Below are positions 2,755 through 26,000 of a DNA stretch of 64,000 nt, piece by piece. Made by a program: the position numbers and the translations under genes. Source of the stretch: Anabaena sp. PCC 7108 (GTDB taxonomy: Bacteria; Cyanobacteriota; Cyanobacteriia; Cyanobacteriales; Nostocaceae); contig NZ_KB235896.1 of NCBI RefSeq assembly GCF_000332135.1, positions 310,001-374,000 of the forward strand. The letters run 5' to 3'. Position 1 is the first letter of the stretch; each line of letters starts with the position of its first letter. The notes beneath the pieces are model-generated. The model was not told where the DNA came from. It did not search any database and saw only the letters and a program-made list of their open reading frames with translations.

Positions 2755-5700
2755 TTAACCAGAGGTTGTATCGGGGATACAATCAAGGTACTGTCTCAGT
2801 ATTTCTGCGATCGCAGACGCATGGGGATGTCGTAGTAAGTTCAGATGATTGCCGGGTACAGTATGGACATCGACACCACCTTTTACCAAATCACGCCAAC
2901 CCCAAGTTTCATCTTGATCAAGCTCTACATCACTTGTTTTTAGCAGGATAACTTTGCCATCATAAGACTGTGCTTTATACCGATACAAAGCTTCAGCATT
3001 AGCCACCAGCATCTGGACTAGACGAAGTGTGACACGAAGTTGCTCACATTTTGTCATGGTCTGGGGATTTTTAGTGGCAACTTGAGGAATTTCAGAACGA
3101 TGTCCAAAAAATGACAACATCTGGTTAATTATACCTTTAGTTTGATCATCACCTTTGGACGGTTGAGAAGATGATGGTTCTGTTACCCTGATTAGGGCAA
3201 GGTAATCGTAGACCCAAGGCAGCATTTCTGGCACACTTACTAAGAAACCAGCTATTCTCCAGAGATCCTTGGCTTTGTAGCCAGTTTTCAAATCAGGGGG
3301 AATATCAACTAGGACTAATAAGTCCACGTCCTGATTTGCTTGTTTAAGACGAACAGCCATTTCATAAACAATGTAGGCTCCTAGTGACCAGCCTGACAGT
3401 AGGTAAGGACCTTGAGGTTGAACTGAACGGATGGCTTGAATATAATAATCAGCCATGTCTTCAACTCGCTTTAAAGGCCGTTTTTCCCCCGTCAATCCCG
3501 GTGATTGTATTCCATAGATAGGGTGATCAGAACCAAGTTGATAGGCTACAGGGTAATAGGGAAAGACGAAACTAGCCATCGGGTGAATCCAGAAAAAAGG
3601 CCGCTTGCTGCCATTTGGTTTGATGGAAACTAGACAGGGATTAGAGGTGAACGCATCTTCAATATCCCTATTACCATGTCCCAGTCCTCCTGATGATAGA
3701 TCGGGCTTTTCAATAACTTGGGCTAATTCGGCAATGGTGGAAGACTGGAACAGAACCCACAACGCTAGATCACAACCAAAAGTCTCCTGTATCTGAGATA
3801 CAATTTGCGCTGCCAGTACCGAATGACCACCCAGCGAAAAGAAGTTATCATGGATGCCTACTTTTTCCAGCCCCAGAACTTTTTGAAAGATTTCAGCTAA
3901 CTGACGTTCAACTGGATTGCGAGGTTCTGTTTGTTCAGTAACTTTCAATCCTGTGTAGGTGTGAGTTAACTGTTTTATATCAACTTCCCCTGAATCTGTC
4001 AAAGGTATTTCATCCAGTTGGACAAAATGGCAGTGAGTTAGAGTACCGAAGCAATCGGCTAGGTTAGGCTGATACAATTGCTCAATGGATAATTCGCTAG
4101 TTTTGGCTGTGAATAAGGCAGTTAATTGTTGTAAATTCTGGCAATCTAAAGTGAAGCGCTGAATATGTGACTTCCCAGCATCCAATCCTACTAAAAGATG
4201 GTTAGAGCGATGTGCTAACGCTACTAACAAGGAATCTATTCCTTGAGAGGGCGAAATAGCACAAAATCCTTTAGCTCTACTTAATTCTTTCATGGGATAG
4301 CCGCGACTCATACCGGTTTCATCCCACATACTCCAACTCAAGCAATAGCTTTGCCAGGAAGTATGTTGCCTTTGGTACGTGCTAAAAGCTTCTTGGAAAC
4401 TATTAGCCGCTGCATAAGCACCCACACCTGTACCCCCAAAGAAACTATTGACTGAGGAAAAGTGAATGAAGAAACCAGGATTCTGATGTTGTAGCAGGTG
4501 ATGGATTACCCAAGTTCCCATTACCTTCTGTTGCAATTTAGCTGTTAAGCTTGCTTGGGTTGCAGATGTTATTAATTGTTCCTGGAGAACTCCCGCTAAA
4601 TGAATTACTCCATCAATTTGAGTTTCCCACTGGGATGATACCAAATTAATGGTCTGTTTCATGTCATCCAGATTACAAATATCAACAGCTTGGTAGAGAA
4701 CAGAACCTGGAAGTTGTCTTAACTGTTGATATGCTTGTATTTTCGCGGTTAAAGCATCTTCACCTTCTTGATAATTCTCCCAAGTGCTTTCATCTGGTAA
4801 AGGTGTCCGACCAATTAACAATAAACGAGCTTGATAATGCTCTAATAAATACCTAGCAATTTTAATGCCAATACCTCCCAGTCCACCAGTGATTAAATAG
4901 ACTCCACTGGTTTTGAAAGGAAGTTGTTGCTGTTCTTGTTCGGCAAAATCTGTCTTTTGCAAACGAGGAACTAAGCGTTGTCCATCTCTGTAAGCTACTT
5001 CCGATTCTGGAGTCAAAACAGAAAATTCTGACAACAGATAACTTCTATTAATTTCAATCGCAGCAATGGGTAGATCAATATGGCGACATTCCAACCAAGG
5101 TATTTCCTGGGGGATGGTTTTGAGGAAGCCCAAAACTGTTGCTTTTTGATATGCGATGGGCGTTCGCGTAGCGTGTCCGCAGGACTCAGCCTCACCTTCG
5201 CTGAACGCGTCACTTGGTAAAATAGATTGACTGTAACTAGCTACAAACAACAACTGTATATTATCTTTTGTTTCATGCAACTTATCTATTGCTTTCACTA
5301 AAAACAGTAAGCTATAGAGTCCTTTTTGTTGACTAACCTCAAGAGTTTCTAGGTCAGAAATATCATCATTATACGTTTCATAATTCCAGAGATGGAAAAT
5401 ATGACCAATGGCATAATTGTTAGTGATTAATGATTTTATTAACCAGTGATAATCTTCTTCATTAGCAGGATTTACCACATAATGTTCACTGCTAATTTGA
5501 GCAAAGTTATTTCCCGCCTCAACTTTGATACAAGGATAATTTTGAGCTTCCAGTCTTTGACAAAGTGATTGTCCTAATCCTAAATCATCAACAAAGACTA
5601 TCACTGCTTGTCTGACAGTAGAAATAGGATTAATTCGCGCCTGCTTCTGACACCAAACTTTCTGATAGAACCAATCAGGAATTGTATTTTTGCCTAAAAG

Positions 5701-8700
5701 AATATCGATGTCTTGAATTAAGGAACTAAAATCACCAGATTCTAGTTTCTGTTTAAGTAGAGAACGCTGAATTTTGCCACTTGTGGTCTTAGGAAATTCC
5801 TGACGTTCTATAGGAATCAGATAGGTAGGAGTAATTCCTAACTGAGAGGCAACTTCTTTTCTGATATCTTGAATAACTGACAAGTAAAGTTGAGAGTCTG
5901 TTTTTTCAGGTGAAAAGAAGATTGCTAATCCTTCAGTTCCTGTTTGTTGATTGGAGAATGCACAAGCCCCTGCATAAGTGGGAACTACACCTGCAATGCT
6001 ATTAACAATATCTTCGACTTCATAGCAGTAATAATTAGCTCCATTGATGATAATTAATTCCTTCTCTCTTCCGGTCAAAACCAAATGACCATTCAGAATA
6101 AAGCCTAAGTCTCCTGAATTAAACCAACCATCTCCAACAAAAGCTTCTGCATTAGCTTGTGGATTATTTAAATAACCTGGGGTGACGACTTTTCCCTTAA
6201 TCTGAAAACGCCCGATTACACCTTCTGGCAAAAGGGAATTTTTATCATCAGTGATGCGAATTTGCACTCCTGGAACTGGGCAACCAAGGTCAGTAAATTC
6301 AATCACATCTACGCTATAATCGGTTGTTTGCTCTAACTGAGCGCCAACAGAAGATTTTTTAATCCGATAAATATCAGTTTGCTCGTTAAACTGATTTTGA
6401 TAAGTCATGCAAGTACAGACTTCAGCCATACCAAAAGCTGGTTGCATAACTTGAGAAGAAATACCAAAAGGTGCAACTGAATTCAAAAATTCTCGGACAA
6501 CTTTAGGAGTTACCTGTTCTCCTGCATTCATCAAGAATTTAACTGAAGAGAGATCCCAATTGTTCCCAGGAGTTTTTGCCAGTGCTTCACTAATTAACTT
6601 AAATCCAAAGTTTGGAGACCAACTGTGAGAAACTCGGTATTCCTCCATCAAATCTAACCATTTCAAGGGGTTAGCTAAGATAACTGCTGTTTCCACTTCA
6701 ACTTGTTGACAACCCAAATATGTATCTTTGAAATGGCACGTTAATATAGGGACAACATGGTCAACGGGCAACCAATTCAGGCTAATATCTTCAGTTGCAT
6801 AGCCATTAAATTGTTTAGCTGCATGGATATGAGCAATGATTCCTTGATGAGTTTCTTGAATACACTTGGGAACTCCTGTGCTACCAGAAGTTAGCTGTAA
6901 AAAAGCTACTTCATCAGAGCGACTAGGATAAAATTCCGAGGTAGGTGAGTAATTTTTTAACTCGGCTACAGAACAAATTTTTAATTCTGGTAGCGGTAGT
7001 AATGAACCCAAGTTTTCTAGAGCTTCAACAAGAATGTTACTCGCTAAAATACAGGGGTGTTCGAGTAATTCCCATGTATTGTATAGTTTATTGATAACTG
7101 CATTTTTCTCTGTGTAAGTGGGGGCTACAGCGACGGTAACAGGTTGAATTCCTCCGAGGATACATCCCCATAAGGTTGGAAAATAATCACGCAAAGATGA
7201 AATTTGCAGAATAACTCGCTGTCCTGGTTGCAAGCCTTGATTTCGCAAGCCGCTAAGAATGCATTTAGCCTCTTCTAATAGGCTAGTGTATGTCTGAAAT
7301 TCCTTTTCGCCTTTTGCAGAGATGTAAGTAATGCCTTGATTTTTGGATCGAGTTGCTGTTTGAATTAATGCTTCTGATAAAGTTTTGGGAGCATCTTCTG
7401 GAATATTCAGCACACCACCATCGCTAATTGCGGGTTTGCTAAATTGTGGTTTTTCTGTAGGGATAAAACTAACAACAGAGGCGGTTTCAGCAATCCGTAA
7501 GGAAATTGCCGTGTTATTTATTCCTGGTGGTAGTAGTTTTGCTAAGTGGAGTGGTGAAGGTGACGGCGTATGACGTGAACTGGCAATTACTACCGCTTGC
7601 TCAATTTCGGGATGGCTGTTTAATTGTTGCTGCCATTGTTCTAGAAGTTTAGTATCAATTACTTCTAAATAAGTTAAAACCTGCTCATCAATTTGCCCTG
7701 TTGCTGTCAATGGCAAATTCGATACTTGCAGATATGCAACTGGCAACATATAACCGGGCAAATTAGCCTGTAAATGAGCATTGAGAGATTCATTTGCTAA
7801 GGATTTTGAGCCAACTAAGTAAGCAACAAGTTTCCCCTCCCGCGCGAGAACATAGCAATCTTCTATACCAGGAATTGATAGTAACTCCTGCTCTATTGTT
7901 TGAAGATTGATCCGGTGTCCCCCAATCCAGATTTGCCTGTGTATTAATCCCAGTACTTCTAGAGATCCATCTCGACGCAGACGACCCCATATTTTAGTTC
8001 TCTGTAACCTTCCTAGTGAGGGATGTTCTATAACTTCAGTTTGTTCTTGCTGCTGCAAATGACTTTTATTTAAATGGGCATCACCAATATCACCAATATA
8101 AATCTCTCCTTCTACACCAAAAGGCAGCAATTCTTGATGATTATCTAATACATAAATTTGTGAATTATCTGCCCATTCATGATCAATAAATTTATTATTT
8201 TCAGCCTTGATAGCAGGGTTATGACATACACTTAATATCTGCTCTCGTTCAGATTGAGATAACAACGGCAGTTGACTAACTTTTTGCTGTGGATTGGATA
8301 TAATTGCTGCTAATATATTTTGGAAATGACCTGCCATCTGGGCAATAGTCTGTTCATCAAATAAATCTGTGTTGTACCTAAAAAACCCAACTAGATCAGA
8401 ACTTCCTTCTGCCATCATCAAGTCTAGATCAAACTGTCCCTCCATTTGGGACATTTCATAAGGTTTTAATTTAAATCCTTCTCGATCTACTTCACCACCT
8501 AATAATAGTTGTTGGCTATGGGGAAACTGCCGTAAGTTTTGCAAAACAAAGTTGAATAAAGCTTGAAATATAGGGGAACGGCTGGGATCGCGTTTTGATT
8601 GTAATCGTTCTACCAGCAAAGCAAAAGGAAAATCTTGATGCACCAATGCTTCTGATACGCAGGAGCGAATTTGAGTGAGAAACTCCTGAAAGGTGGGACT

Positions 8701-9771
8701 TTCTGAGAAATTCACCCGCATTACAACTGGATCAACAAAGTAGCCAACTAGTGGCATAAATTCAGATTTAGTTCTACCTGAAGTGGGAACACCGACTAAA
8801 ATATCTTCCTGTCCCGTGTAACGATGTAGGAGAATCTTAAATGCCGCCAGCAGCACCATAGATTGAGTCGCACCTTCCTTTTGAGCCAGCTGTTTGATTT
8901 GTGCTGTCAGCTTTGGAGATAGTGTGAATCGATGAGAAGCGCCGTTATAAGTTTGTATAGGTGGCCGTGGTCTGTCTGTTGGTAAATTGAGTATGGGTAA
9001 ATCTCCTGCCAATTTTTTTTGCCAGTATTCCCAAAGTTTTTCTCCTGGAGTGCTTGTTAACAATTCTCTTTGCCAACGCACGTAATCTATGTAGGAGTTT
9101 TTCAGAGGAGTCAGAGGTGGCTCAACCCCTGACTCTAGGGCAGGATAGGTCATGATCATTTCTTCCATCAGCAATGGAAGACACCAAGCATCAATGGCAA
9201 TATGATGTACTGTTAGTAATAAAATATGTTCTTGTTGAGAACGAGTAAATAAACTCACTCGCATTACTGAACCATTTTCCAGGTCAAAGGGTTGCTGGGA
9301 TTCTTGAAAAACCTGGTGATGAAGTTCCTGGTCACTCCAAGTAGAAGCATTTATCTGCTGAAAGTTTGGTAATTCGGTTTGATGGATCTTTTGAACTGGC
9401 TTGTTACCTTGTTTGGGAAAACTGCTACGCAACTGCGGATGACGTTCTATGAGAGTCTGGAAAGTTTTTTGCAAAGTCGTAACATTGACATAGGAACAGA
9501 TACGACAGGTAAATGCCACATTGTAAAATCCATTCTCTGGTGCTAATTGCCACAGAAACCACATGGCTTGTTGACCATAGGAGAGGGGATAAACATTTAA
9601 AATATCTGGGGAATCATGAAGTACCTGTAAAATTTCAGTTTTGTGCTGTTGTAGTTGTGCAATAACATCAGCAGTTAGGACAGATTGGGAACCACCAATA
9701 CGCAATTTTTCGCCGTTAAGTCCTAATTTAACTCCTTTCAAAGAAAGGTCTTGTAAAAATTCTACTATCAT
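2755..9771 (-). CDS. NRPS-like megasynthase: docking-C-(vestigial A)-A-KR-PCP-TE
   Basis: This 2338-residue protein starts with a TubC-type docking domain (about 1-50). A condensation domain follows (about 57-480) with an HHxxxD motif at His189-His190 and Asp194. Residues about 500-720 are the C-terminal piece of an adenylation domain that lacks its core; its A10 motif reads PLTATGQID, with Gln where the catalytic Lys should be. A complete adenylation domain follows (TSGSTGVPK; FGMAEV; SGDLGF; KTTSGKIQR). Then come a ketoreductase (TGGLGGIG; SSVNS; Tyr1786 in YAAAN), a carrier domain (GGHS, Ser1984) and a thioesterase (GWSLG, Ser2129; late His in GNHLNLL). Split Asub-like pieces on either side of A-KR resemble the pseudo-Asub of keto-acid-activating depsipeptide modules. 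It is the last synthase of the left arm: the start overlaps the PKS stop by 4 bp (ATGA), which suggests translational coupling. Substrate unknown. Confidence 0.9.
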   Translation of the reverse strand: MIVEFLQDLSLKGVKLGLNGEKLRIGGSQSVLTADVIAQLQQHKTEILQVLHDSPDILNVYPLSYGQQAMWFLWQLAPENGFYNVAFTCRICSYVNVTTLQKTFQTLIERHPQLRSSFPKQGNKPVQKIHQTELPNFQQINASTWSDQELHHQVFQESQQPFDLENGSVMRVSLFTRSQQEHILLLTVHHIAIDAWCLPLLMEEMIMTYPALESGVEPPLTPLKNSYIDYVRWQRELLTSTPGEKLWEYWQKKLAGDLPILNLPTDRPRPPIQTYNGASHRFTLSPKLTAQIKQLAQKEGATQSMVLLAAFKILLHRYTGQEDILVGVPTSGRTKSEFMPLVGYFVDPVVMRVNFSESPTFQEFLTQIRSCVSEALVHQDFPFALLVERLQSKRDPSRSPIFQALFNFVLQNLRQFPHSQQLLLGGEVDREGFKLKPYEMSQMEGQFDLDLMMAEGSSDLVGFFRYNTDLFDEQTIAQMAGHFQNILAAIISNPQQKVSQLPLLSQSEREQILSVCHNPAIKAENNKFIDHEWADNSQIYVLDNHQELLPFGVEGEIYIGDIGDAHLNKSHLQQQEQTEVIEHPSLGRLQRTKIWGRLRRDGSLEVLGLIHRQIWIGGHRINLQTIEQELLSIPGIEDCYVLAREGKLVAYLVGSKSLANESLNAHLQANLPGYMLPVAYLQVSNLPLTATGQIDEQVLTYLEVIDTKLLEQWQQQLNSHPEIEQAVVIASSRHTPSPSPLHLAKLLPPGINNTAISLRIAETASVVSFIPTEKPQFSKPAISDGGVLNIPEDAPKTLSEALIQTATRSKNQGITYISAKGEKEFQTYTSLLEEAKCILSGLRNQGLQPGQRVILQISSLRDYFPTLWGCILGGIQPVTVAVAPTYTEKNAVINKLYNTWELLEHPCILASNILVEALENLGSLLPLPELKICSVAELKNYSPTSEFYPSRSDEVAFLQLTSGSTGVPKCIQETHQGIIAHIHAAKQFNGYATEDISLNWLPVDHVVPILTCHFKDTYLGCQQVEVETAVILANPLKWLDLMEEYRVSHSWSPNFGFKLISEALAKTPGNNWDLSSVKFLMNAGEQVTPKVVREFLNSVAPFGISSQVMQPAFGMAEVCTCMTYQNQFNEQTDIYRIKKSSVGAQLEQTTDYSVDVIEFTDLGCPVPGVQIRITDDKNSLLPEGVIGRFQIKGKVVTPGYLNNPQANAEAFVGDGWFNSGDLGFILNGHLVLTGREKELIIINGANYYCYEVEDIVNSIAGVVPTYAGACAFSNQQTGTEGLAIFFSPEKTDSQLYLSVIQDIRKEVASQLGITPTYLIPIERQEFPKTTSGKIQRSLLKQKLESGDFSSLIQDIDILLGKNTIPDWFYQKVWCQKQARINPISTVRQAVIVFVDDLGLGQSLCQRLEAQNYPCIKVEAGNNFAQISSEHYVVNPANEEDYHWLIKSLITNNYAIGHIFHLWNYETYNDDISDLETLEVSQQKGLYSLLFLVKAIDKLHETKDNIQLLFVASYSQSILPSDAFSEGEAESCGHATRTPIAYQKATVLGFLKTIPQEIPWLECRHIDLPIAAIEINRSYLLSEFSVLTPESEVAYRDGQRLVPRLQKTDFAEQEQQQLPFKTSGVYLITGGLGGIGIKIARYLLEHYQARLLLIGRTPLPDESTWENYQEGEDALTAKIQAYQQLRQLPGSVLYQAVDICNLDDMKQTINLVSSQWETQIDGVIHLAGVLQEQLITSATQASLTAKLQQKVMGTWVIHHLLQHQNPGFFIHFSSVNSFFGGTGVGAYAAANSFQEAFSTYQRQHTSWQSYCLSWSMWDETGMSRGYPMKELSRAKGFCAISPSQGIDSLLVALAHRSNHLLVGLDAGKSHIQRFTLDCQNLQQLTALFTAKTSELSIEQLYQPNLADCFGTLTHCHFVQLDEIPLTDSGEVDIKQLTHTYTGLKVTEQTEPRNPVERQLAEIFQKVLGLEKVGIHDNFFSLGGHSVLAAQIVSQIQETFGCDLALWVLFQSSTIAELAQVIEKPDLSSGGLGHGNRDIEDAFTSNPCLVSIKPNGSKRPFFWIHPMASFVFPYYPVAYQLGSDHPIYGIQSPGLTGEKRPLKRVEDMADYYIQAIRSVQPQGPYLLSGWSLGAYIVYEMAVRLKQANQDVDLLVLVDIPPDLKTGYKAKDLWRIAGFLVSVPEMLPWVYDYLALIRVTEPSSSQPSKGDDQTKGIINQMLSFFGHRSEIPQVATKNPQTMTKCEQLRVTLRLVQMLVANAEALYRYKAQSYDGKVILLKTSDVELDQDETWGWRDLVKGGVDVHTVPGNHLNLLRHPHASAIAEILRQYLDCIPDTTSG
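5157..5216. repeat. palindromic dispersed repeat inserted in frame in the NRPS
   Basis: The stretch contains GCGTTCGCGTAGCGTGTCC and a distal CGCTGAACGC, so it can fold back. The core GTTCGCGTAGCGTG recurs at 40745 in tnpB. In the NRPS it is read in frame and encodes a low-complexity, Ala/Ser/Glu-rich tract (SDAFSEGEAESCGHATRT, about residues 1519-1538) between the adenylation and ketoreductase regions. It looks like a repeat that settled in an interdomain position where the protein tolerates it. Confidence 0.6.
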
Positions 9772-12665
9772 ATTTCTATCTCAATCCAATCACTATTTTT
9801 GATGTTCATCTGAAATTGATCATTACTTTCTGGCTTCACAGTTTGAGTAATATTTATCGGAACTAGTTGATGGTTGATCTGAGTTGATAGGGTGACAATA
9901 GTTGACCCTTCCATAAAAATATTAATAGGAATATCTAAATTCAAATCCGTTTGCATCTGATTTCGCAATTCCGTAAGCATTAGCGAGTCCATGCCCATTT
10001 CAAAAAAATTTTGCTCTATGTTGGGCAATTGAGAGCCTTTAAATCCTAAAATCCTGCCGATTTGCTCCTGAAGATAAGTTATTAATAGAGTTATGCGATC
10101 GCTTTTATCTGCCGTTTCTAGCTGTTGTAAGATTTGGGTATTTTGGGTAGAAATTGATGGTTTTGCAGCTTGTTGTTCTATTTCGAGCTTTTTGGGCAGA
10201 TATTGCTTTTGAGGCTGGATAGTACCTGTGTCAATCCAATATCGCTCTCTTTGAAATGGATATGTTGGTAGTGCAACTTTTGTCCGCTGATAATCACGGT
10301 CAAATCCTGACCAATCTACTTTGACTCCGGCTACAGACAACTGCCCTAAACTAGAGAGCATGACTTGCCATTCCTCCATTCCCGGAAGCAAAGAAGGTAG
10401 CCACATACCCTCAGGTTGGCATTCACGCCCCATGTCCAATAAAATGGGCTTTGAACCAATTTCTAAGAATACTTTATACCCAAGTTTATGCAATGTCTGC
10501 ATACTTTTAGCAAACTGCGCTGCACTAGATACATGATTCATCCAGTATGGCGCTGTTGCTATCTCTTCATCAGCCAGATTACCAGTAACATTGGATATTA
10601 ATGGTATTTGCGGCTGATTGTAGGTGACTTGATTGGCTATGGCTGAAAATTCTGCCAACACTGATGACACCATCTCGCTACCAGATGGTAACTGCTGCAT
10701 CAATTGTCCTCGATGGGCAATGAGTTTGAGTCCATCTTCTAAGCTGAAAACCCCTGCTACAGTTGCAGCAACATATTCGCCGACATTATGTCCCATGACT
10801 GCATTTGCTTGAATACCCCAAGATTTCCAAAGTTGATACAGGGCATATTCAAAGGCAAATAAGGCTGATTGAGTATAGGCGGTTTGATCTAATAATGATG
10901 ATGCAATTTGTTCTCCGGCTTGGTCAGGATATAGTATCTCTAACAGCGAATGTTTCAGATAGGGGCGTAGAATTTCATTACACTGCTCAAGCGTTTGGCG
11001 GAAGATGGGCTGAGTGTCGTAGAGTTGCCTTCCCATGTTGATGTACTGGCAGCCTTCTCCAGTAAATAGGAAGGCGATTTTCATCTGCTTTTTACTTGCT
11101 TGATTGCTGAACAATCCAGTAGTATGGTTTCCTGTGGCAAAAGCGGCTAGTTGTGCGATTAATTGCTCTTTTGAGTCAATTACAACTGCGAGACGGTGCT
11201 GAAAATGCGATCGCCCTGTATTCGCCGTAAAACAAATATCTGCTAATTCTAGCTTTGGATGATCTTCAAGGTGACTTTGATAGCGACTGACCAATGCTTG
11301 CAAAGCTGGTTCAGTTTTGGCAGATAAAGTTAATAAATGACTTGAACGCTCCCGCAAATTTTCATGTTTAACTTGAGGGGGCGCTTCTTCTAAAATTACA
11401 TGAGCATTCGTACCACCAAAACCAAAGGCACTAACCCCTGCCAATCTCGGTTGTTCTTGGGCTGGCCATTCCTGTAGTTCTGTGGGAATTTGAATAGGAG
11501 TGTTTTTAATTTTAATGTAAGGATTTAACTCTTGAAGATGCAAATGAGCCGGAATCTCACCATGTTGTAGCGATAAAACTACTTTGATCAACCCAGCAAT
11601 CCCAGAAGCAGCTTCCGAATGACCAATATTTGTCTTGACTGAACCAATCCAACAAGGTTGATTTACTTCCCTACCTTCCATCAGCACTGCTTTGAGAGAG
11701 TTCACCTCAATGCTATCTCCCAAAGGTGTTCCCGTACCTTGAGTCTCGACATAGCTGATCTGTGATGGTTTCACCTCAGCCCTGGCTAAAGCTTGGCGGA
11801 TAACTGCTTGTTGAGAAGGTCCGTTGGGGGCTGTGAGTCCATTACTCAGACCATTTTGGTTAACGGCTGAACCTCTAATAATTCCTTGAATATTGTCTCC
11901 ATCTCTCAGTGCATCAGCCAGACGTTTGAGAACTACAACTCCACATCCCTCAGCTCGGACGTAACCATCCGCTGACGCATCAAAGGTTTTGCAACGACCG
12001 TCTGATGACATCATTTGAGCATGAGAGAGGGAGATTGTTGCTTCTGATGACAAAATTAGGTTAACTCCCCCAGCCAGACACAGATTAGACTCTCCACTCA
12101 ACAAACTTTGACAAGCGTAGTGGAGTGCTACCAGTGATGAAGAACAAGCAGTATCTATGACTAAACTTGGACCACGTAGATTGAGTAGATAGGATAAACG
12201 ATTAGCAATAATGCACAAACCGGTGCCAACTGCATTGTAAGCATTAATTTGAGCATTTTCTTTCGCTAAAATTATTCCGTAGTCATAGTTAGAAGCACCT
12301 AAGAAAACTCCTGTTTGACTACCACTAAGTTGTGTTGATGGAACTATGCCGGCATTTTCCAAACTTTCCCAAGCAACTTCCAACAATAACCTTTGTTGAG
12401 GATCTAGACGTTCTGCTTCTCTGGGAGAAATTTGGAAAAAATTAGGATCAAAGTAATCTACTTGTTCTAAAAAGCCGCCTTTTATGCTTTTTGATTTGCC
12501 AGTGCTAGGGACTACGGAATGCTTGTGCAACGAGTCCCAATCATAAGGTCGTGATGATATCTCCCTAATCGCATCTATTTTATTAGATAGAAGTTCCCAA
12601 AAAGATGTTAGATTTTCAGCACTAGGAAATCGGCAACCAACTCCTATAATTGCTATTTTTTCCAT
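9768..12665 (-). CDS. type I polyketide synthase, KS-AT-ACP, with altered KS and AT active sites
   Basis: This 965-residue protein has a ketosynthase (about 1-425), an acyltransferase (about 535-830) and an acyl carrier domain (about 860-935, Ser894 in MGMDSL). The KS keeps the nucleophile Cys174 (DTACSSS) and the second His349 (NIGHSEAASG), but the first catalytic His, normally in HGTGT, is Gln309 (VETQGTGTPLGD). The AT nucleophile motif, normally GHSxGE, reads GHNVGE with Asn627 in place of Ser, and the usual GQGSQ reads GEGCQ. By family knowledge these changes should block decarboxylative condensation and malonyl self-loading. There are no reductive domains. The start is 3 bp after the upstream halogenase stop, and the end overlaps the NRPS start. 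It may act as a pass-through carrier or depend on enzymes in trans; recent decay is the alternative. Confidence 0.9.
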   Translation of the reverse strand: MEKIAIIGVGCRFPSAENLTSFWELLSNKIDAIREISSRPYDWDSLHKHSVVPSTGKSKSIKGGFLEQVDYFDPNFFQISPREAERLDPQQRLLLEVAWESLENAGIVPSTQLSGSQTGVFLGASNYDYGIILAKENAQINAYNAVGTGLCIIANRLSYLLNLRGPSLVIDTACSSSLVALHYACQSLLSGESNLCLAGGVNLILSSEATISLSHAQMMSSDGRCKTFDASADGYVRAEGCGVVVLKRLADALRDGDNIQGIIRGSAVNQNGLSNGLTAPNGPSQQAVIRQALARAEVKPSQISYVETQGTGTPLGDSIEVNSLKAVLMEGREVNQPCWIGSVKTNIGHSEAASGIAGLIKVVLSLQHGEIPAHLHLQELNPYIKIKNTPIQIPTELQEWPAQEQPRLAGVSAFGFGGTNAHVILEEAPPQVKHENLRERSSHLLTLSAKTEPALQALVSRYQSHLEDHPKLELADICFTANTGRSHFQHRLAVVIDSKEQLIAQLAAFATGNHTTGLFSNQASKKQMKIAFLFTGEGCQYINMGRQLYDTQPIFRQTLEQCNEILRPYLKHSLLEILYPDQAGEQIASSLLDQTAYTQSALFAFEYALYQLWKSWGIQANAVMGHNVGEYVAATVAGVFSLEDGLKLIAHRGQLMQQLPSGSEMVSSVLAEFSAIANQVTYNQPQIPLISNVTGNLADEEIATAPYWMNHVSSAAQFAKSMQTLHKLGYKVFLEIGSKPILLDMGRECQPEGMWLPSLLPGMEEWQVMLSSLGQLSVAGVKVDWSGFDRDYQRTKVALPTYPFQRERYWIDTGTIQPQKQYLPKKLEIEQQAAKPSISTQNTQILQQLETADKSDRITLLITYLQEQIGRILGFKGSQLPNIEQNFFEMGMDSLMLTELRNQMQTDLNLDIPINIFMEGSTIVTLSTQINHQLVPINITQTVKPESNDQFQMNIKNSDWIEIEI

Positions 12666-12668: not shown

Positions 12669-13997
12669 TTAAAGTGCTAGAGAAAACTGATTAAAGGCTT
12701 TGATATTATTTTTGATCGCTTTTCCAATGGAAGCGCCTGAGGCCATTACACTCATATTCCGATTTACAGGCCACAAATAATCTAGCTGATTTGCAAACTT
12801 ACGTAAATCTGATAATAGGTGATTGTGTACCTTCAGATTGACATGGAATCCTTCATGCTCATGACATAGGCACTTTTCAATCCACTGAAGTGCCTCTTCT
12901 TTGGACATATTAAATACAGGACTCTGCAAGAGTTTCATAATAAAAACTATCGCATTACTATCACTCAAGAAGCGATTGCTTGATATTCCAGAAATAGCAT
13001 TGAGGTTTTCATGCTGTGCTTGTAAGATAGCTAAATTTGCAATCAATTTTTCATAGGTCGATGGCTTAGGTAAAGTTTTATAAAAGTCTCTACCCAGGAA
13101 TAAGGAAGTTGTTGTATGAAAAGCCTCATCTAAAAAATGATAGTGAGATATAGTTGTTGGACTGGCTATAAATTCATTATTTTTCTGCAATTTTCTGTAA
13201 TATTGATGAATGCCAAATTCATGATTTTTCAGAGCTAGATTAGCCATGTAGCGCACAGCAAAAAAATTGGCAGCTAGGAATGGATAACTTCTCCAGTTAT
13301 CGGAAAAGAACTGTCTTCTGGATGGGGCTGATTTTCCCGAAAGCCCATTAAAAAAGCCATTGCTAGCAAATGATGCAGGTTTATTGACATCTTTTACTTC
13401 TCCGAAATTTTCGGAATGAGATTGCTCTTTGTTTTTGAGCATCATCATAGTGATAAAATTGGCAGCAGAGGATAGATAATCAGAAAGTTGATAACTTTTC
13501 TGGCTGCTCAAAGATACTTTATCTGAACCAGAATTAATGAGAGCTTTCTTACCTAGTAAAGATTTTGTAGTTTGATAATTTACCTGATAGAAAGTATGAA
13601 TATGTTTGCGTTCTTGGGCAGTTTCATGAGCTAACAATTCGACAAGCATTTTATAATCACTACTTACAGACATCAGGCAATCTGCTGTGACTGTGTTGTA
13701 ATGAATTAGCTCAGTTTCGCTATCAGCAGTTAGTTTATAAAACAAAGTCCAATGCAAATGATTGAGAGCAAATTTTTGAGATTGAGAAGCTTGTTCATAG
13801 AGTGGTGTGCCATAAAGCAGTGAGTGTTCTGATTCACTCCAGTAAGCACTGCTGTTACTATCATAGTTAAAGTTTTTATCTAATTCCTCTATTTTTTCAG
13901 TGTAATCAGATTCAAGATTATTACTATAATTTTTCTCCAAGAGGGAGATAACTGGATTTACCGGAGATGTTGGTGAAGTTTGATTGCTAGTAATCAT
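12669..13997 (-). CDS. CylC-like dimetal-carboxylate halogenase, copy 1
   Basis: This 442-residue protein belongs, in my reading, to the CylC family of ferritin-like dimetal-carboxylate halogenases, which chlorinate unactivated carbons of ACP-bound fatty acyl chains. Candidate metal-ligand motifs are HETAQERKHIHTF, LDEAFHTT and HEHEGFHVNL. All three are conserved at matching positions in the neighbouring copy (14091-15470). It has no signal peptide or membrane segments. A ribosome binding site (AAAGGA) precedes the ATG at 13997. It lies between copy 2 and the PKS, downstream of a FAAL and an ACP, the context expected from cylindrocyclophane- and columbamide-type clusters. Assignment is by recognition of the motifs and context; the regiochemistry and the halide cannot be read from sequence. 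Confidence 0.75.
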   Translation of the reverse strand: MITSNQTSPTSPVNPVISLLEKNYSNNLESDYTEKIEELDKNFNYDSNSSAYWSESEHSLLYGTPLYEQASQSQKFALNHLHWTLFYKLTADSETELIHYNTVTADCLMSVSSDYKMLVELLAHETAQERKHIHTFYQVNYQTTKSLLGKKALINSGSDKVSLSSQKSYQLSDYLSSAANFITMMMLKNKEQSHSENFGEVKDVNKPASFASNGFFNGLSGKSAPSRRQFFSDNWRSYPFLAANFFAVRYMANLALKNHEFGIHQYYRKLQKNNEFIASPTTISHYHFLDEAFHTTTSLFLGRDFYKTLPKPSTYEKLIANLAILQAQHENLNAISGISSNRFLSDSNAIVFIMKLLQSPVFNMSKEEALQWIEKCLCHEHEGFHVNLKVHNHLLSDLRKFANQLDYLWPVNRNMSVMASGASIGKAIKNNIKAFNQFSLAL

Positions 13998-14090: not shown

Positions 14091-15470
14091 TCAGGTAGAG
14101 GCGATTATTGATTCGGAGAACTGCTTAAAGGTTTTGACATTGTTTTGGAGAGCTTTGCTAATCGAGCCTCCTGAAGCCATGATCCCCATTTCACGGTTTA
14201 TCTTCCATTGGTAATCTAGGCAACCGAAGAATTTCTGCAAAGATTCCAAGAGACTTTGATGATATTTGAGTCCTACATGGAAACCTTCGTGTTCTTGACA
14301 AAAACACTTTTCCATCCAATCGAGAGCTTCTTTTGTTTCCATCTCAAATAGGGAGGATTTTAAGAGCTTGTAGATAAAAACCATGAACAGCGGATCATCG
14401 GCAACACAGCGATTGGGAAAGACTCCAGAAAGACCATTTAACAGGTTGCGCTGCATCATGTAAATTATCTGACCAGATACAAATTTCTCGTAAGCAGTTG
14501 GCTTTGGGAAATCCTTATACATATCTTTGCCGATTGTTTGGGAAATCGTGGTGTGGAAAGCCTCGTCCATTAAGTGGTAATAGGAAACAGCTGTTGGGGC
14601 TGGTATATATTCGCCTTTTCGCTCTAATTCTCGGAAATACTTAACATAGGGATACTCTTGGTTCTTCAGGACAGCATTAGCCATATAGCGTAATGAATAA
14701 TACTGACACGCCATAAACGGCGACATACCCCAGTGAGTAGTGAAAAACTTTAACCAGTAACGGGGTGCGATTAGTCCTCCTACACCATCTGCTGGTGCAG
14801 GAATTGGCTGGCCTTTCTCCTCCAAGTCTCGCAAATACTGAGAATAATACTGTTGTTTATCTCTCAGCATTGTCTTAGCGATCGCGTTTAAGGTATTATC
14901 TCGATATATAGAAAATCGGGAATTCCCCTTGCTAGAGATGAAAAACTCCTGAACAAAATCAGGGATTAAAGATTTAAACCAATTATTATTATCTTTATCT
15001 GATTTGGTATAAACGGAATTGCCCAAGGTGGTTTTGCCGACTATAGCCATTTTTGTTTTGAAACCAATTTTTTGAAAGGTGCGAATGTGGTAGCTTTCCT
15101 GATCGGTTTCAAAATCTAATTCCTGACAAAGTGTTTCATAAGTACCAAGGTTGCGAAACACACCATTCGTAACACTATTATAAATACTTGTATTTGCTTC
15201 GCTGGCAGCAATATAGTTATAGTTTGCTACCCAAAAAAGATGGTTTAGTGCTAGTTTTTGTGAGTTAGAAGCAACATTGTAGAGGGGAGTACCATATAGA
15301 ACTGAAAGTTCGGGATCGCCCCAGTAATAATTACTGTTAATTTTGTAATCATACTCATTTCCCAAGTCTCTAATTTTCTCAGTATAGTCTGAGTCCGTGT
15401 TATTCTGATAAGTTTTTGAAATGAGTTTTAGGTGCTTTGTCTGTTGTACTTGTGGCTGGGTCGCTAACAT
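14091..15470 (-). CDS. CylC-like dimetal-carboxylate halogenase, copy 2
   Basis: This 459-residue paralogue of the downstream gene shares its layout: SDYTEKI near the N-terminus, LYGTPLY, then the putative metal-binding motifs FETDQESYHIRTF, MDEAFHTT and QEHEGFHVGL, ending in a matching GIMASGGSISKAL tail. It has a longer middle section (about residues 165-215) than copy 1. GGAG lies just upstream of the ATG at 15470. The 93-bp gap to copy 1 and the shared strand indicate one transcript. Tandem CylC-type enzymes occur in the columbamide cluster, where they chlorinate different positions of the acyl chain; I infer a similar division of labour here. Confidence 0.75.
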   Translation of the reverse strand: MLATQPQVQQTKHLKLISKTYQNNTDSDYTEKIRDLGNEYDYKINSNYYWGDPELSVLYGTPLYNVASNSQKLALNHLFWVANYNYIAASEANTSIYNSVTNGVFRNLGTYETLCQELDFETDQESYHIRTFQKIGFKTKMAIVGKTTLGNSVYTKSDKDNNNWFKSLIPDFVQEFFISSKGNSRFSIYRDNTLNAIAKTMLRDKQQYYSQYLRDLEEKGQPIPAPADGVGGLIAPRYWLKFFTTHWGMSPFMACQYYSLRYMANAVLKNQEYPYVKYFRELERKGEYIPAPTAVSYYHLMDEAFHTTISQTIGKDMYKDFPKPTAYEKFVSGQIIYMMQRNLLNGLSGVFPNRCVADDPLFMVFIYKLLKSSLFEMETKEALDWMEKCFCQEHEGFHVGLKYHQSLLESLQKFFGCLDYQWKINREMGIMASGGSISKALQNNVKTFKQFSESIIAST

Positions 15471-15564: not shown

Positions 15565-15849
15565 TTAGTTGACCTGAGCTAAATGTTCCGCTAGGTCCGC
15601 AATTGTTGGATAATCATACATGATTGTTGGTTCTATGTCTTTTCCTAGCCAATCTTGTAAATCTCCCGTTAACATTACTGCGGATGATGAATCTAAACCA
15701 TAACGGGCAAAAGTATTTTGTAAATCTATTTCTTCAGGTTCAATTTCTAGCAAATCTGATATGTAGGAAACTAGCCAGTTGCTAATTTCTTGTGATGTCA
15801 ATTTATCGCTTTGTTCACTTACTCTGTTGTCTTCAGAAAGTTTAGTCAT
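15565..15849 (-). CDS. stand-alone acyl carrier protein
   Basis: A 94-residue acyl carrier protein with the phosphopantetheine attachment motif YGLDSSSAVML (DSS), followed by LQDWLGKDIEPTIMYDYPTIADLAEHL, typical of FAAL-partner carriers. It should accept the fatty acyl group from the FAAL at 16155-18041 and present it to the two halogenases downstream. GAGG lies about 9 nt before the ATG at 15849. The gene is separated from the FAAL by about 305 bp, which is unusually loose for this pair. Confidence 0.9.
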   Translation of the reverse strand: MTKLSEDNRVSEQSDKLTSQEISNWLVSYISDLLEIEPEEIDLQNTFARYGLDSSSAVMLTGDLQDWLGKDIEPTIMYDYPTIADLAEHLAQVN

Positions 15850-16154: not shown

Positions 16155-18041
16155 CTATTTTTGAAGTGCATTAGCTTTCGCACCCTCCTTGATATTTACT
16201 CTTTTCAAATCAGGATTAATTTCCTGTACTTTTTCTAAGAGCGAGTTAACATCAGTTTCCAACTTTTGAAGTTTAACTTGATGCTGAAGGCTTTCATTAC
16301 CATCTTCGACCACATTCAAACTGCCATCTACAAACCCACGCCGACAAGCATGGCGCTGGATTTTCCCGCTAGATGTCTTGGGAATACTACCAGGCTTAAT
16401 CAAAACTGTGGCATATACTTGTAAGCCGTGGTGATCTATCACTGCCTCGGTGATATTTCCGATGACCTCTTTAATATTCAACCTCCTCAAAGATGTTCGT
16501 TCTACTTCTTGCACAACAACTAATCGCTGTTGCCCTTTTTGCTCTACTGTAAAGGCTGCCCCCCCATCAAATCGTAGTGCTGGATGACTGTTTTGAACCG
16601 TTAACTCAATATCCTGGGGGTAATGATTTTGTCCACGGATGATAATAACATCCTTGAGTCTTCCTGTGACAAATAGTTCGCCATCTTGCAAAAATCCCAA
16701 GTCTCCTGTGCGGAGAAACGGACCCTCACCTGTATCTGACAGATAAGCTTGGAAAGTTTCTGCGGTTTGTTCTGGTCGTTGCCAATAGCCAGCAGCCACA
16801 GAAGAACCCGATACCCAAATCTCCCCTATACGATTAGTCGGACATAAGGTTAAAGATTCGGGATCAACAATGGCGATTTTTTCATCTAACCAGGTTTGAC
16901 CACAACCGACAATTGTTCTAGTTCCTGCTTCAGATTCAGCCGCTACTACCTGATTTTCTTCAAGGGCTGCTGCTTCTAGCTCGTACAGAACGGGGGGAGA
17001 TGTTTTCAAACCGCCGGACACGAATAAAGTCGTTTCAGCCATGCCGTAACAAGGATACAATGCTTCTTTACGAAAACCACACTCGGCAAAATATTTTGCA
17101 AAGCGATCTAGCGTTTCCGACCGCACTGGTTCGGCTCCGTTGAAAGCGACTTCCCAACTGCTCAAGTCAAGACTAGACAGTTCTTCAGGAGTAATTTTGC
17201 GAACGCAAACATCATAAGCGAAATTGGGTCCACCACTAGTAGTCGCTTGGTAACGAGAAATAGCTTGCAACCAACGCAAAGGCTTTTGCAGAAAAGCTAC
17301 TGGTGACATGAGAATGGAATGTATCCCTAAATACAGGGGCTGCAAGACATTGCCAATCAATCCCATATCGTGAAATAAGGGCAACCAACCGACGAAAATT
17401 GTTTTATCTGTATGTCCGAAGCCGATCTTAATCGCTCTCTGATTGGATAGCAAATTTCTATGCGTTACCATTACTCCCTTCGGTATTCCCGTAGAGCCGG
17501 AAGTGTATTGGAGAAATGCTAGACTATCCTGATCTAGTTTCAGTTCTTGCCAATGTGAACTGAGATTGCTGTCGATGTCATCAGTACTTAACCATTGCAT
17601 AGTTGGCAATTCTGGATTTTGGTCCCATTGATTTACCAAGTTTGCTAACAAGGATGATGTAGTCAATACCACAGTTGCTTGAGCATCTGTGACTATCGAT
17701 TGCAATCTTAATAAGTTCATATTCTGACGGGGTGGATATGCAGGAACTGCGACAACCCCTGCATATAAACACCCCAAGAAGGCTGTAATAAATTCTAGAC
17801 CAGGTGGATACAATAACAAAGCACGTTCACCAGCTGATCCTAGAGACTGAAAACGGGATGCGATTGCTCTGGCTTTTTGATCTAGTTCTTGATAAGTCAG
17901 GCTGACTTCTTCCCTTTCGCCATCTTGCAGAAATGTGTAAGCCTTTTGCTGTGGCTGATTCTGCGCTCTATAGATAAGTAGTTCTATTAATGTTGAAAAT
18001 CTCTCTAGAGGATTTTGCAAATCGTTCAAACGAACATTCAT
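16155..18041 (-). CDS. fatty acyl-AMP ligase (FAAL), left arm
   Basis: This 628-residue adenylating enzyme has LQYTSGSTGIPKGVMVTH (ATP loop), WLPLFHDMGLIG, YGMAETTLF, LRTGDLGF, IIIRGQNHYPQDIE and the C-terminal Lys motif PKTSSGKIQRHACR. The combination QNHYPQDIE plus HDMGLIG is typical of FAALs, which convert free fatty acids to acyl-AMP and load them on an ACP rather than on CoA. The C-terminal tail (about 590-628) is charged. It is the first gene of the left (minus) arm, facing the divergent control region, and should prime the downstream ACP at 15565. A CylA/ColA-type role is likely by analogy. Confidence 0.92.
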   Translation of the reverse strand: MNVRLNDLQNPLERFSTLIELLIYRAQNQPQQKAYTFLQDGEREEVSLTYQELDQKARAIASRFQSLGSAGERALLLYPPGLEFITAFLGCLYAGVVAVPAYPPRQNMNLLRLQSIVTDAQATVVLTTSSLLANLVNQWDQNPELPTMQWLSTDDIDSNLSSHWQELKLDQDSLAFLQYTSGSTGIPKGVMVTHRNLLSNQRAIKIGFGHTDKTIFVGWLPLFHDMGLIGNVLQPLYLGIHSILMSPVAFLQKPLRWLQAISRYQATTSGGPNFAYDVCVRKITPEELSSLDLSSWEVAFNGAEPVRSETLDRFAKYFAECGFRKEALYPCYGMAETTLFVSGGLKTSPPVLYELEAAALEENQVVAAESEAGTRTIVGCGQTWLDEKIAIVDPESLTLCPTNRIGEIWVSGSSVAAGYWQRPEQTAETFQAYLSDTGEGPFLRTGDLGFLQDGELFVTGRLKDVIIIRGQNHYPQDIELTVQNSHPALRFDGGAAFTVEQKGQQRLVVVQEVERTSLRRLNIKEVIGNITEAVIDHHGLQVYATVLIKPGSIPKTSSGKIQRHACRRGFVDGSLNVVEDGNESLQHQVKLQKLETDVNSLLEKVQEINPDLKRVNIKEGAKANALQK

Positions 18042-19154: not shown

Positions 19155-20288
19155 ATGCAGAAATCTAATCAAGAGAAGTGGGTACTGTACAGTACCTGTG
19201 ATGAAGATTCATACTCGGAGTTACGAGCTTTAGATATTACATCCAACGACAGAGTGCTTGCGGTAACAGGCAGCGGCTGTCGAACTCTTAGCCTTCTTGC
19301 TTGCAATCCCAAGTCCTTAATCTCTGTAGACTACTCACCTGGTCAAAATTATCTGCTCGAATTGAAACTAGTAGCAATTCGGGCTTTATCATATGAGAAG
19401 CTACTGCAATTTTTTGGTGTAGAAGATTGCTCCAATCGTTGGGATATATTTTGTTCATTCAAAGAGCAAATATCTGATCAAGCATTTGCGTATTTTAGCG
19501 CCAATCGGTGGGCAATTGAAAATGGAGTTCTCTGCTCAGGTCGTCATGAATTATTTTACGTTAGATTCGTTGCGCCATTAATGCGAGTACTTTATGGTAA
19601 ACAACTGGAGCAGATTGCTCAAGCTTCAACATTAGAAGAGCAGCGTGAAATTTTCAATAAACATATCTCTGGTTTTTTCTGGAATTCTTTGATTCGTATA
19701 GGCTTTTCACCTTTGTCAATAACCCTCATTCTCAACGATCCCAAATATGTCGTAGAAATGAATGTCAATGTTGGCGATTACCTCATAGAAAGACTGAATC
19801 ACACTTTCAATAACCATTTAGTCCGGGAGAATAACTGGACTAGTTTCATGTTCTATGGTAAATATCTGGGAAGACGTTGTCTTCCTCATTTTTTACTTGA
19901 GGAAAATTATCATGCTATCCGTAATGCCACAACCAAACTTGAGATTGTGACAGGAAATCTGGTCGAATGCATGAAAAAAATGCCAGAACGGTCAATCGAC
20001 AAGTATTCACTATCAGATGTTACAAGTTGTATTGACACAGAGACTTTTAAAGCTTTAATAAACCAAGTTATTAGAACAGGGGAAAACCAAGGAAAATTAT
20101 GCTATCGGAATTTTCTGAATAAGCAATTAATTCCATCTGATGTAGAAAATATTCTTCAGCGAGATCATGAATTAGCAGAGGCTCTTTATCATGATGATTT
20201 AGCATTTGCCTATAGTTTTGAGATAGCGCAAATTAACAAAATAGAAAAGCAAGTTGCAGAAACTAGAACAGTAGCTGAAATTAGTTAG
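19155..20288 (+). CDS. DUF3419/BtaA-like SAM 3-amino-3-carboxypropyl transferase
   Basis: This 377-residue protein has the DUF3419 signature at its N-terminus: DRVLAVTGSGCRTLSLL (SAM-binding loop), PKSLISVDYSPGQNYLLELK and KLLQFFGVEDC. Characterised relatives (BtaA) transfer the 3-amino-3-carboxypropyl group of S-adenosylmethionine to diacylglycerol in betaine-lipid synthesis, releasing methylthioadenosine. A C-terminal methyltransferase-like segment with EIVTGNLVECMKKMPERSIDKYSLSDV is also typical. AAGAAGG precedes the ATG. It is the first gene of the right arm. In this context it may attach a homoserine-like unit to a cluster intermediate; a betaine-lipid role is less likely because no BtaB-type N-methyltransferase is fused or adjacent. 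Confidence 0.7.
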   Translation: MQKSNQEKWVLYSTCDEDSYSELRALDITSNDRVLAVTGSGCRTLSLLACNPKSLISVDYSPGQNYLLELKLVAIRALSYEKLLQFFGVEDCSNRWDIFCSFKEQISDQAFAYFSANRWAIENGVLCSGRHELFYVRFVAPLMRVLYGKQLEQIAQASTLEEQREIFNKHISGFFWNSLIRIGFSPLSITLILNDPKYVVEMNVNVGDYLIERLNHTFNNHLVRENNWTSFMFYGKYLGRRCLPHFLLEENYHAIRNATTKLEIVTGNLVECMKKMPERSIDKYSLSDVTSCIDTETFKALINQVIRTGENQGKLCYRNFLNKQLIPSDVENILQRDHELAEALYHDDLAFAYSFEIAQINKIEKQVAETRTVAEIS

Positions 20289-20325
20289 TAGAAATAACTG
20301 AGGTAATATTTAGAGAGTCACGATT

Positions 20326-21309
20326 ATGTGCTTGAATCAAAATTTCAGAATTCACCCCATTCCTAATAGCTGGTATCGTGTTTGTTTTAGTAAAGACCTG
20401 CGTCCAGGCGAAGTTAAGCCACTGCGTTACTTTAACAAGGATCTCGTTCTCTTCCGCACAGAAAGTGGTGAAGCCTGTGTCTTTGATGCTCACTGTCGTC
20501 ATTTAGGAGCGCATTTAGGTCATGGAGGAGAGGTAAAGGGTGAATGTATCCAATGTCCTTACCACGGTTGGACATGGCATAAAGAGGGACAGTGCGTTCA
20601 TGTTCCTTACCATCACACTGGTAATAATCCAACTGTTCAAATTGGCAAATGGCCAGTAGCTGAACTTAATGACACAATCTTTACTTACTACCACAGTGAA
20701 GGAAAGCCACCCACTTGGGAAATGACCGAATTTCCTGAATTTTCTTCTGGAGAGTGGGTATCTGCAATCCAAATGTATAAACGCAACGTTACATGCTCTA
20801 TACAAGAAATTGCCGAAAATAATTCAGATACTGCACATTTCAGCCATTTACACAAAGCCAGGTTTGGTAAAGTCCTCACCGAATCTCTGGAATTAGATGG
20901 TTTGGTACGTACTCATATTGCCTCTTATGAACTTGAAGTACCGATTATATCTAGATTGCTTGGTATTAATGAATTCCATACTGCATATACACAGTATGGA
21001 TTAGGTTGCAATCGAAATCATGTCTCCCTTAAAGCCAATGGAAAAACAGTCCTAGAATGGCGAATTATTTGTATGCATACGCCAATTGATAAAGAAAATG
21101 CCGAAGCGCTATGCATGACAAAACTGAAGAAATTCATAAATGTTCCCATCACCCGTTTATTAGTAGAACTACTGACTAAAAAAGCCTGTGATGAAGTTGA
21201 CAGAGATGCAATGGTATGGGATCACAAAATTTTTCATGAGAATCCCCCTCTCTACAAGGAGGAACACAGCATTAACCAATTCCGAGAATGGGTTGAACAA
21301 TTTTACTAA
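20326..21309 (+). CDS. Rieske non-haem iron oxygenase
   Basis: This 327-residue protein has a Rieske [2Fe-2S] domain with CRHLGAHLGHGG and CPYHGWTW (Cys-X-His and Cys-X2-His ligands). The catalytic domain has the mononuclear-iron motif NSDTAHFSHLH. The arrangement resembles KshA/Neverland-type Rieske monooxygenases or desaturases that act on lipophilic substrates. It is soluble, with no signal peptide. It would need a ferredoxin and reductase, neither encoded nearby. It starts 37 bp after the DUF3419 gene on the same strand. A hydroxylation or desaturation of the acyl product is the likely role. Confidence 0.88.
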   Translation: MCLNQNFRIHPIPNSWYRVCFSKDLRPGEVKPLRYFNKDLVLFRTESGEACVFDAHCRHLGAHLGHGGEVKGECIQCPYHGWTWHKEGQCVHVPYHHTGNNPTVQIGKWPVAELNDTIFTYYHSEGKPPTWEMTEFPEFSSGEWVSAIQMYKRNVTCSIQEIAENNSDTAHFSHLHKARFGKVLTESLELDGLVRTHIASYELEVPIISRLLGINEFHTAYTQYGLGCNRNHVSLKANGKTVLEWRIICMHTPIDKENAEALCMTKLKKFINVPITRLLVELLTKKACDEVDRDAMVWDHKIFHENPPLYKEEHSINQFREWVEQFY

Positions 21310-21388
21310 ATTCGGATATTACCGAAAAAGATATCAAAATACGATATCACAATCAGTACCCACTCACCCTCCTAAGAGCATCTAAGAA

Positions 21389-22510: not shown

Positions 22511-22624
22511 TTTGAAAAGACGCGATGTAAATTCCCTGGAATAGGCTTGTACTTATGCTTTAACAATAAATCATAAGTACGAACCAGTGATAATTTATCA
22601 CGCCAACCTACTTAAATAATTCCC

Positions 22625-24718: not shown

Positions 24719-24919
24719 CGAGCTTCTGTAAATCCTTTCACCCTGAGAAATTCTTTAAGCTCCCCTTATTTAACCAAAGTTGGTAGTTATACCTGTAATA
24801 GTATGCGGAGTGATGGGGAGAAAAATTAATTCTTGCTTCTGAAACTCTTAAGGCCTATTCATAACTATCAACTTACATAATTTACCAAAACAATTGTTGT
24901 CTTCTTTCCATAAAATCAC

Positions 24920-25963: not shown

Positions 25964-25975
25964 TTAAGAAGTTAT

Positions 25976-26000
25976 AAGAGAGGTATCCTGTATCTCTCTT
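25976..26000 (+). terminator. hairpin with T-rich tail after KAS III gene
   Basis: AAGAGAG pairs with CTCTCTT across an 11-nt loop, followed by TATCTTCTTTT. It lies 13 bp after the KAS III stop and could be a rho-independent terminator or attenuator within the right arm. Confidence 0.5.

Follow-up and report, generated by a model that had tools for sequence, protein, structure and literature searches.

A cis-acyltransferase polyketide synthase module of Anabaena sp. PCC 7108 proposed to act as a non-extending relay to a nonribosomal peptide synthetase

The window analysed here is a 64,000-nucleotide stretch of the genome of Anabaena sp. PCC 7108 (contig NZ_KB235896.1, positions 310,001 to 374,000), and our subject is a minus-strand polyketide synthase (PKS) gene at 9768-12665 of the window. 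Its intact frame encodes 965 amino acids with Pfam matches to ketoacyl-synt, Ketoacyl-synt_C, a partial Acyl_transf_1 and PP-binding. The ketosynthase (KS) domain (residues 1-430; 11376-12665) is followed by a matched KS-AT linker, a remnant of an acyltransferase (AT) domain (residues ~526-810; 10236-11090) and an acyl carrier protein (ACP) domain (9861-10103). Sequence comparison marks the acidic C-terminal tail, SDWIEIEI (9771-9794), as a proposed short linear motif (SLiM) docking peptide. A first-pass annotation of this DNA had reported that both catalytic domains are altered, and translation of the codons bears this out: Gln309 (CAA, 11739-11741) stands in place of the His of HGTGT, and Asn627 (AAT, 10785-10787) in place of the Ser of GHSxGE. 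It was likewise right that the acyl-accepting Cys174 of the KS (12144-12146), the second KS histidine, His349 (11619-11621), and Ser894 of the ACP, within GMDSL, are retained. Lys344 of the KS is retained as well.

Damage to the AT goes beyond what had been noted. At residues ~667-669 (10659-10667), GSEMVS runs straight into VLAEF, and alignment with orthologues and with CurL identifies this as the junction of an in-frame loss that left the large subdomain and removed the small one. Between the HR of HRG and the Y.QP motif, the window protein has 29 residues, whereas three intact relatives each have 97; the 68 missing residues include the HAFHS motif, which bears the second catalytic His. When compared with the KS-AT of CurL (4mz0_A), the nearest solved structure by sequence, the window protein yields two matched pieces that overlap in its own numbering and skip ~CurL 721-791. 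By established AT architecture, the skipped stretch is the small, ferredoxin-like subdomain, which carries the second catalytic residue (HAFHS). The KS lacks the HGTGT His and keeps its active-site Cys, as KS0 domains do, although the usual setting of a KS0 is an AT-less module of a trans-AT system, whereas here an AT remnant follows the KS. Nor does the protein correspond to a canonical cis-AT extension module, as the AT has neither the Ser of GHSxGE nor a small subdomain with HAFHS. Judged by these residues, both the condensation chemistry of the KS and the loading of an extender unit look disabled.

The gene lies within a same-strand run that reads, in minus-strand order, a fatty acyl-AMP ligase (FAAL; 16155-18041), a stand-alone ACP of 94 aa (15565-15849), two AurF-like proteins of 459 aa (14091-15470) and 442 aa (12669-13997), the KS0-AT0-ACP protein, a nonribosomal peptide synthetase (NRPS; 2755-9771) and a class 3 lipase-like protein (1436-2671). 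Domain matches resolve the NRPS into TubC_N, condensation (C), adenylation (A) fragment, FAAL/CoA-ligase-like A, ketoreductase (KR), peptidyl carrier protein (PCP) and thioesterase (TE) domains. Its N-terminal TubC_N, a beta-hairpin docking domain, spans 9616-9768 (PF18563, 5.9e-12), and the A fragment (NRPS residues ~626-692) is a remnant A-domain C-terminus between the C domain and the FAAL/CoA-ligase-like A domain. Over the parts read, the NRPS is 81-86% identical to its counterparts in five related genomes. The lipase-like gene adjoins the NRPS in three of the close orthologue loci; the remaining one of the four ends before that point. Beyond the FAAL, on the plus strand, lie nocuolin-type genes assigned by domain matches (19155-30228; DUF3419, Rieske, acyl-CoA dehydrogenase, FAAL-ACP, KASIII-like, ABC1-aminotransferase and FMO), and the DUF3419, Rieske and dehydrogenase genes adjoin the cluster in all four close orthologue loci too. 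The same-strand run contains the gene set of chlorosphaerolactylate/nocuolactylate clusters (FAAL, ACP, CylC homologue(s), type I PKS and a C-A-KR-T-TE synthetase), with the CylC assignment drawn from cluster context and a weak, sub-cut-off AurF match. On that basis the two AurF-like proteins, 42% identical to one another, are likely CylC-type dimetal halogenases. The second AurF-like gene (14091-15470) is missing from that place in the four close orthologue clusters, at loci L063, L064, L065 and L066 (G and L numbers are our labels for genomes and loci), which instead carry an ORF of 543-546 aa between FAAL and ACP; the L065 copy, the one scanned, is acyl-CoA dehydrogenase-like.

Close orthologues of the KS0-AT0-ACP protein are found in four genomes (G002, G003, G223 and G133), with 81.5-88.5% identity, lengths of 950-999 aa and intact frames. 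The G002 copy is identical in sequence to that of Anabaena lutea FACHB-196 (L064), and the G223 copy to that of Sphaerospermopsis aphanizomenoides BCCUSP55 (L063). All four have QGT[GA]T in the KS, none has HAFHS, and the AT Ser is replaced by Asn in three and by Asp in one. With a deeper relative (G061) included, Gln309 occurs in five further genomes, four of which have Asn and one Asp at the AT site. Whether Gln and Asn are fixed had been left to an alignment of this kind: Gln is, but Asn is not uniform. Because the same Gln and an altered AT site recur in these other genomes, sequencing error is ruled out. All five close members retain Cys174, the Ser of the ACP and the docking tail at the C-terminus, the tail reading SDWIEIEI in three of the four orthologues and SDWIELEL in G133. 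The AT gap, on the other hand, varies in size (68 residues in the window, 82 in G002, 67 in G003, 44 in G223 and 67 in G133), so that one shared deletion is not supported as the whole story.

To quantify selection, we pooled Nei-Gojobori estimates of the nonsynonymous to synonymous rate ratio (dN/dS) over the ten pairs of the five orthologues, with bootstrap ranges. The ratio is 0.164 (0.114-0.221) for the KS, 0.295 (0.155-0.548) for the KS-AT linker, 0.252 (0.178-0.314) for the AT core and 0.225 (0.125-0.372) for the ACP, compared to means of 0.235, 0.232 and 0.162 for the neighbouring NRPS, 442-aa AurF-like and FAAL genes. Values above 1 were seen in one of ten pairs for the post-AT linker and in three of ten for the last 30 residues, where dS is very small and one further pair is undefined. 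Purifying selection acts on the protein at a level comparable to that on its neighbours. Recent pseudogenisation, which the first-pass annotation had offered as the alternative, is contradicted by these values (0.16-0.25 for KS, AT core and ACP), by the shared residues and by the five intact frames, and we reject it. A decaying gene that has stayed in frame by chance would account for AT gaps that differ by lineage (44-82 residues) and for the short fragments of the lost small subdomain that G223 keeps; however, five frames of 950-999 aa, ratios well below 1 in three domains, and conservation of both the neighbours and the docking tail make this very improbable. In the ACP-coding 3' part of 9768-12665, distances depart from those of the rest of the gene (dS of 0.65 for window-G003 and 0.07 for window-G002), and this pattern suggests gene conversion of the 3' end.

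Trees indicate where the module may have come from. A KS tree built from 143 modules places the window clade of six (support 100) beside L069 and L070, from G060 and G153, both of which keep HGTGT, GHSVGE and HAFHS. The five close members again group together (95/91) beside L069 and L070 in the AT tree, with G061 outside on a long branch; forcing the six into a single clade gives an approximately unbiased p value (p-AU) of 0.034. A single origin of the dead AT, shared with G061, is consequently doubtful, but the long branch tempers this. The G153 module (L070), sister to the window lineage in both trees, ends in the same SDWIEIEI tail and precedes an NRPS that is 81% identical to that of the window over residues 2-1718. 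Unlike the window module, it has the order KS-AT-DH-KR-ACP, with dehydratase (DH) and KR domains and all KS and AT catalytic residues present. An apparently active module thus fills the window module's place in G153, and for this reason the window lineage, most simply, would have lost DH and KR and had its KS and AT silenced.

G061 itself contributes a further case. Its homologue (L067:7701-12224), a KS0-AT0-DH-ACP-TE protein within a FAAL/AurF-like cluster, is 70% identical to the window protein over residues 1-820 and has QGTGT, GHN and an AT gap of 82 residues. Following the AT are a PKS_DH domain without the usual His (judged by eye), an ACP and a TE. Apart from the KS Cys, ACP and TE, this module also looks silenced.

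We propose, with a probability of roughly 0.72, that the window protein is a fixed, non-extending relay (KS0-AT0-ACP) in a cis-AT line, which receives a C12 chain, loaded by the FAAL and probably chlorinated, and passes it to the lactate NRPS in a cluster of the chlorosphaerolactylate/nocuolactylate type. The FAAL would load a medium-chain (C12) fatty acid onto the small ACP, and the two AurF-like proteins would chlorinate it. Cys174 would then take the chain and hand it to Ser894 of the same protein, with no extension, given Gln in place of the condensing His and an AT unable to load malonate. The acidic tail after the ACP would dock onto the TubC_N domain, the C domain would join the chain to lactate made by the A and KR domains, and the TE would release the lactylate. 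We infer the transfer steps, chlorination, docking and product; the relay from ACP to Cys174 to Ser894 to NRPS is proposed because the residues that accept and hand on a chain are kept, those for malonate loading and condensation are gone, and KS0 domains provide precedents. The term KS0 is used for KS domains of trans-AT systems that lack the HGTGT His (PMC5764310, PMC5772238), and algal PKSs are described as having terminal KS0 domains (PMC4661987). In vitro, the trans-AT KS0 of MmpA is reported to have accepted acyl chains carried by an ACP (PMC10952193).

The product type bears on whether the module extends. The literature gives the FAAL substrate as C12:0, by hypothesis for the chlorosphaerolactylates and from in vitro data for the nocuolactylates (PMC11837247 Table 2), and describe preparation of chlorosphaerolactylate B starting from 12-bromododecanoic acid (PMC9557163). 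NocQ and ClyF are presented there as depsipeptide synthetases that couple fatty acids to hydroxy acids (PMC12184294). Because the substrate is listed as C12:0 and the product was made from a C12 acid, no chain extension is expected. The module could nevertheless still extend, were a free AT to load its ACP and the KS to condense with Gln309: Cys174 and His349 remain, and a free-standing AT-like ORF (294 aa) is present in the genome, albeit probably FabD. This is improbable in light of the HGTGT His being described as necessary for decarboxylative condensation (PMC4661987), the definition of KS0 (PMC5764310, PMC5772238) and a C12 chain from a C12 starter (PMC9557163, PMC11837247). The non-extending pass-through to an NRPS-like protein that the first-pass annotation had raised is, on the residues and the C12 product type, the best explanation.

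Might the module instead serve halogenation, as a platform or gate that holds the chain on its ACP or KS for the AurF-like proteins to act on? In all five clusters the gene immediately upstream is AurF-like, and AurF-like genes occur in the KS0-module loci L096, L097, L078, L072, L077 and L080. However, none was seen around the KS0 modules of L073, L099, L102, L104, L106, L107 and L109 (stretches of <=20 kb), and the cluster has a stand-alone ACP, which leaves this idea with very little weight.

A dead AT beside such a KS had been called unexpected. We scanned 388 cyanobacterial genomes for DNA encoding V-E-x-Q-G-T-[G/A]-T, a KS pattern blind to the AT, and found 15 places in 14 genomes, compared to one match for the reversed control. 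Three of these drop out: the place in G585 is no KS, and the two in G465 lie in broken frames. All 12 remaining Q-type KS genes, that of the window included, have a readable adjacent AT, and GHSxGE is present in none, which contradicts the earlier expectation. We then assembled 143 distinct KS-AT modules, dropping identical KS stretches (179 to 143) and leaving frames of <700 aa unused; the collection is non-random (similarity to this gene, the Q pattern and places partly already suspected), and its counts are no estimate of prevalence. Modules were scored as KS-damaged if they have Q309, Y349 or HAVGT, and as AT-damaged if the Ser or xxFHS is lost. The AT is damaged in 30/30 KS-damaged modules versus 19/113 others (Fisher 2.9e-18, kinship ignored), the 19 including some short or cut frames, e.g. 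L018 and L128. On the KS tree, KS damage requires at least 7 changes (5 for Q309) and AT damage at least 21. AT damage with an intact KS motif is seen in L074, L075, L112, L118, L131, L135, L136, L140, L142, L148, L150 and L151; such modules might be loaded in trans or might also be skipped.

Among the KS-damaged modules, Cys174 and Lys344 are present in 30/30 (the Cys also in 113/113 of the others) and His349 in 27/30, while the AT Ser survives in 1/30. That one is L147, a Q-type module in which the xxFHS motif was not found; L080 shows the reverse, with HAFHS kept and the AT Ser replaced by Gly. The small-subdomain stretch retains 90-95 residues in L147, L080 and L106 and <50 in the other 27, compared to a median of 91 in KS-intact modules (15/113 under 50). 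After a Q-type KS and dead AT, the L106 frame (L106:4147-10296, G562) continues with another AT match and then an ACP. These figures also bear on a scaffold role, in which KS and AT are purely structural and Cys174 is idle: the chain would go straight to the module ACP or to the C domain, and the protein would be retained on account of its ACP and docking tail. Both of those parts are conserved, and in six HAVGT modules an ACP with an FEI tail is a separate ORF of 102-110 aa, which means that ACP and KS-AT are separable. Yet idle domains would hardly explain why Cys174 and Lys344 are kept throughout when the AT Ser is lost in all but one, or why the KS has the lowest dN/dS point estimate in the protein; we regard a scaffold as unlikely, though still to be reckoned with.

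The partner of the window module recurs as well. A TubC_N-docked protein follows 21/30 KS-damaged versus 7/80 KS-intact frames (Fisher 4.3e-10, kinship ignored; 32 frames were skipped where the locus ended, and the partner reading for L106 and L147 is ambiguous). For 15 of these 21, the very next ORF encodes the TubC_N protein, and the ACP is part of the module itself; in the other six, the HAVGT modules, the separate ACP ORF intervenes. The 21 represent about four lineages on the KS tree and are not independent events. In every one, the ACP-bearing protein closes with an acidic tail (DWIEIEI or DWIELEL, EIFEI, ETFEV, EMFEI, EVFEL, EVFEI, EEITI or similar). The docking literature describes pairing of a SLiM with a beta-hairpin domain at ACP/C junctions (PMC9113145, PMC13324335), and the tails resemble such motifs; the window has both halves of the pair, an acidic SDWIEIEI after the ACP and the TubC_N match at the NRPS N-terminus. 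In several clusters, a conserved protein of ~640 aa with a TubC_N-like start follows the KS0-AT0 module (L096:9005-10930, L097:6315-8234, L099:9565-11484, L104:11379-13289, L107:11856-13733, L078:6852-8735, L072:11574-13448 and L077:5561-7432; 58-89% identity to that of L096). In the two scanned (L096 and L077), TubC_N alone exceeded the Pfam cut-off and NCBIfam gave no match at E up to 1, leaving a new family of off-loading or tailoring enzymes as a possibility.

Collectively, these patterns raise the prospect that cyanobacteria have repeatedly converted cis-AT extension modules to relays, losing condensing chemistry, the AT Ser and mostly the small subdomain while keeping Cys, Lys, ACP and tail, to serve as adaptors onto a docking-tail ACP for a TubC_N partner (an NRPS or the ~640-aa protein, which has no recognised catalytic domain). 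We see the evidence for this wider claim as evenly poised. Our searches of the Creative Commons-licensed PMC literature turned up no description of a KS0-AT0 cis-AT module in cyanobacteria, and four biosynthesis terms looked for in PMC9557163 do not occur there.

Several observations weigh against the relay proposal or its extension to other clusters. Testing the association of KS and AT loss on independent pairs gives a median p of 0.0625, above 0.05 (averages over 6 pairs: 4.6 concordant, 0 discordant, 1.4 tied). Nine of the 30 KS-damaged modules precede no TubC_N protein; among these, L102 and L103 carry an NRPS C domain in-frame, L109 has A and PCP matches and no C match, L067 ends in a TE, and L073, L061 and L055 precede other proteins (a GMC oxidoreductase in L073). 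The dN of the window KS to the intact pair L069/L070 is ~0.20, versus 0.07 between that pair, which indicates a phase of rapid change in the window KS. The AT may in part still be eroding, since its dN/dS point estimate exceeds that of the KS and its gap sizes still vary among lineages. Identity to the published chlorosphaerolactylate (cly) and nocuolactylate (noc) clusters is judged from gene content.

Were the domain order taken at face value, the module would pass for one that extends, and the predicted product would be too long by two carbons. A simple way to recognise non-extending cis-AT modules by sequence is Gln309 together with a lost AT Ser. With an intact module in G153 and a dead one in the window clade, sharing a docking tail and closely similar NRPSs, a silenced-yet-kept module becomes directly testable, and it supplies a natural design for adaptors that join PKS to NRPS.

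Among known systems, CurL of the curacin pathway matches the window protein over the KS, the linker and the retained AT, but it keeps HGTGT, GHSVGE and a small subdomain with SHAFHS. At the level of the cluster, the likeness is to cly and noc, for which published accounts list FAAL, ACP, one or two CylC homologues, type I PKS and depsipeptide synthetase, with nocuolin-type genes adjacent (PMC8406957, PMC12184294, PMC11837247); in nocuolin, NocH is given as a FAAL-ACP and NocG as a ketosynthase (PMC11837247). In its proposed function, the module is closest to the KS0-ACP modules of trans-AT systems, such as MmpA and MmpE of mupirocin, which also lack the HGTGT His and pass the chain on unextended (PMC5764310, PMC5772238, PMC10952193, PMC7619045). 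Unlike those, the window module is cis-AT in origin, carries its own eroded AT and feeds a TubC_N-docked NRPS. We therefore propose a known idea in a new setting: an eroded-AT, cis-AT module that would function like a KS0-ACP relay.

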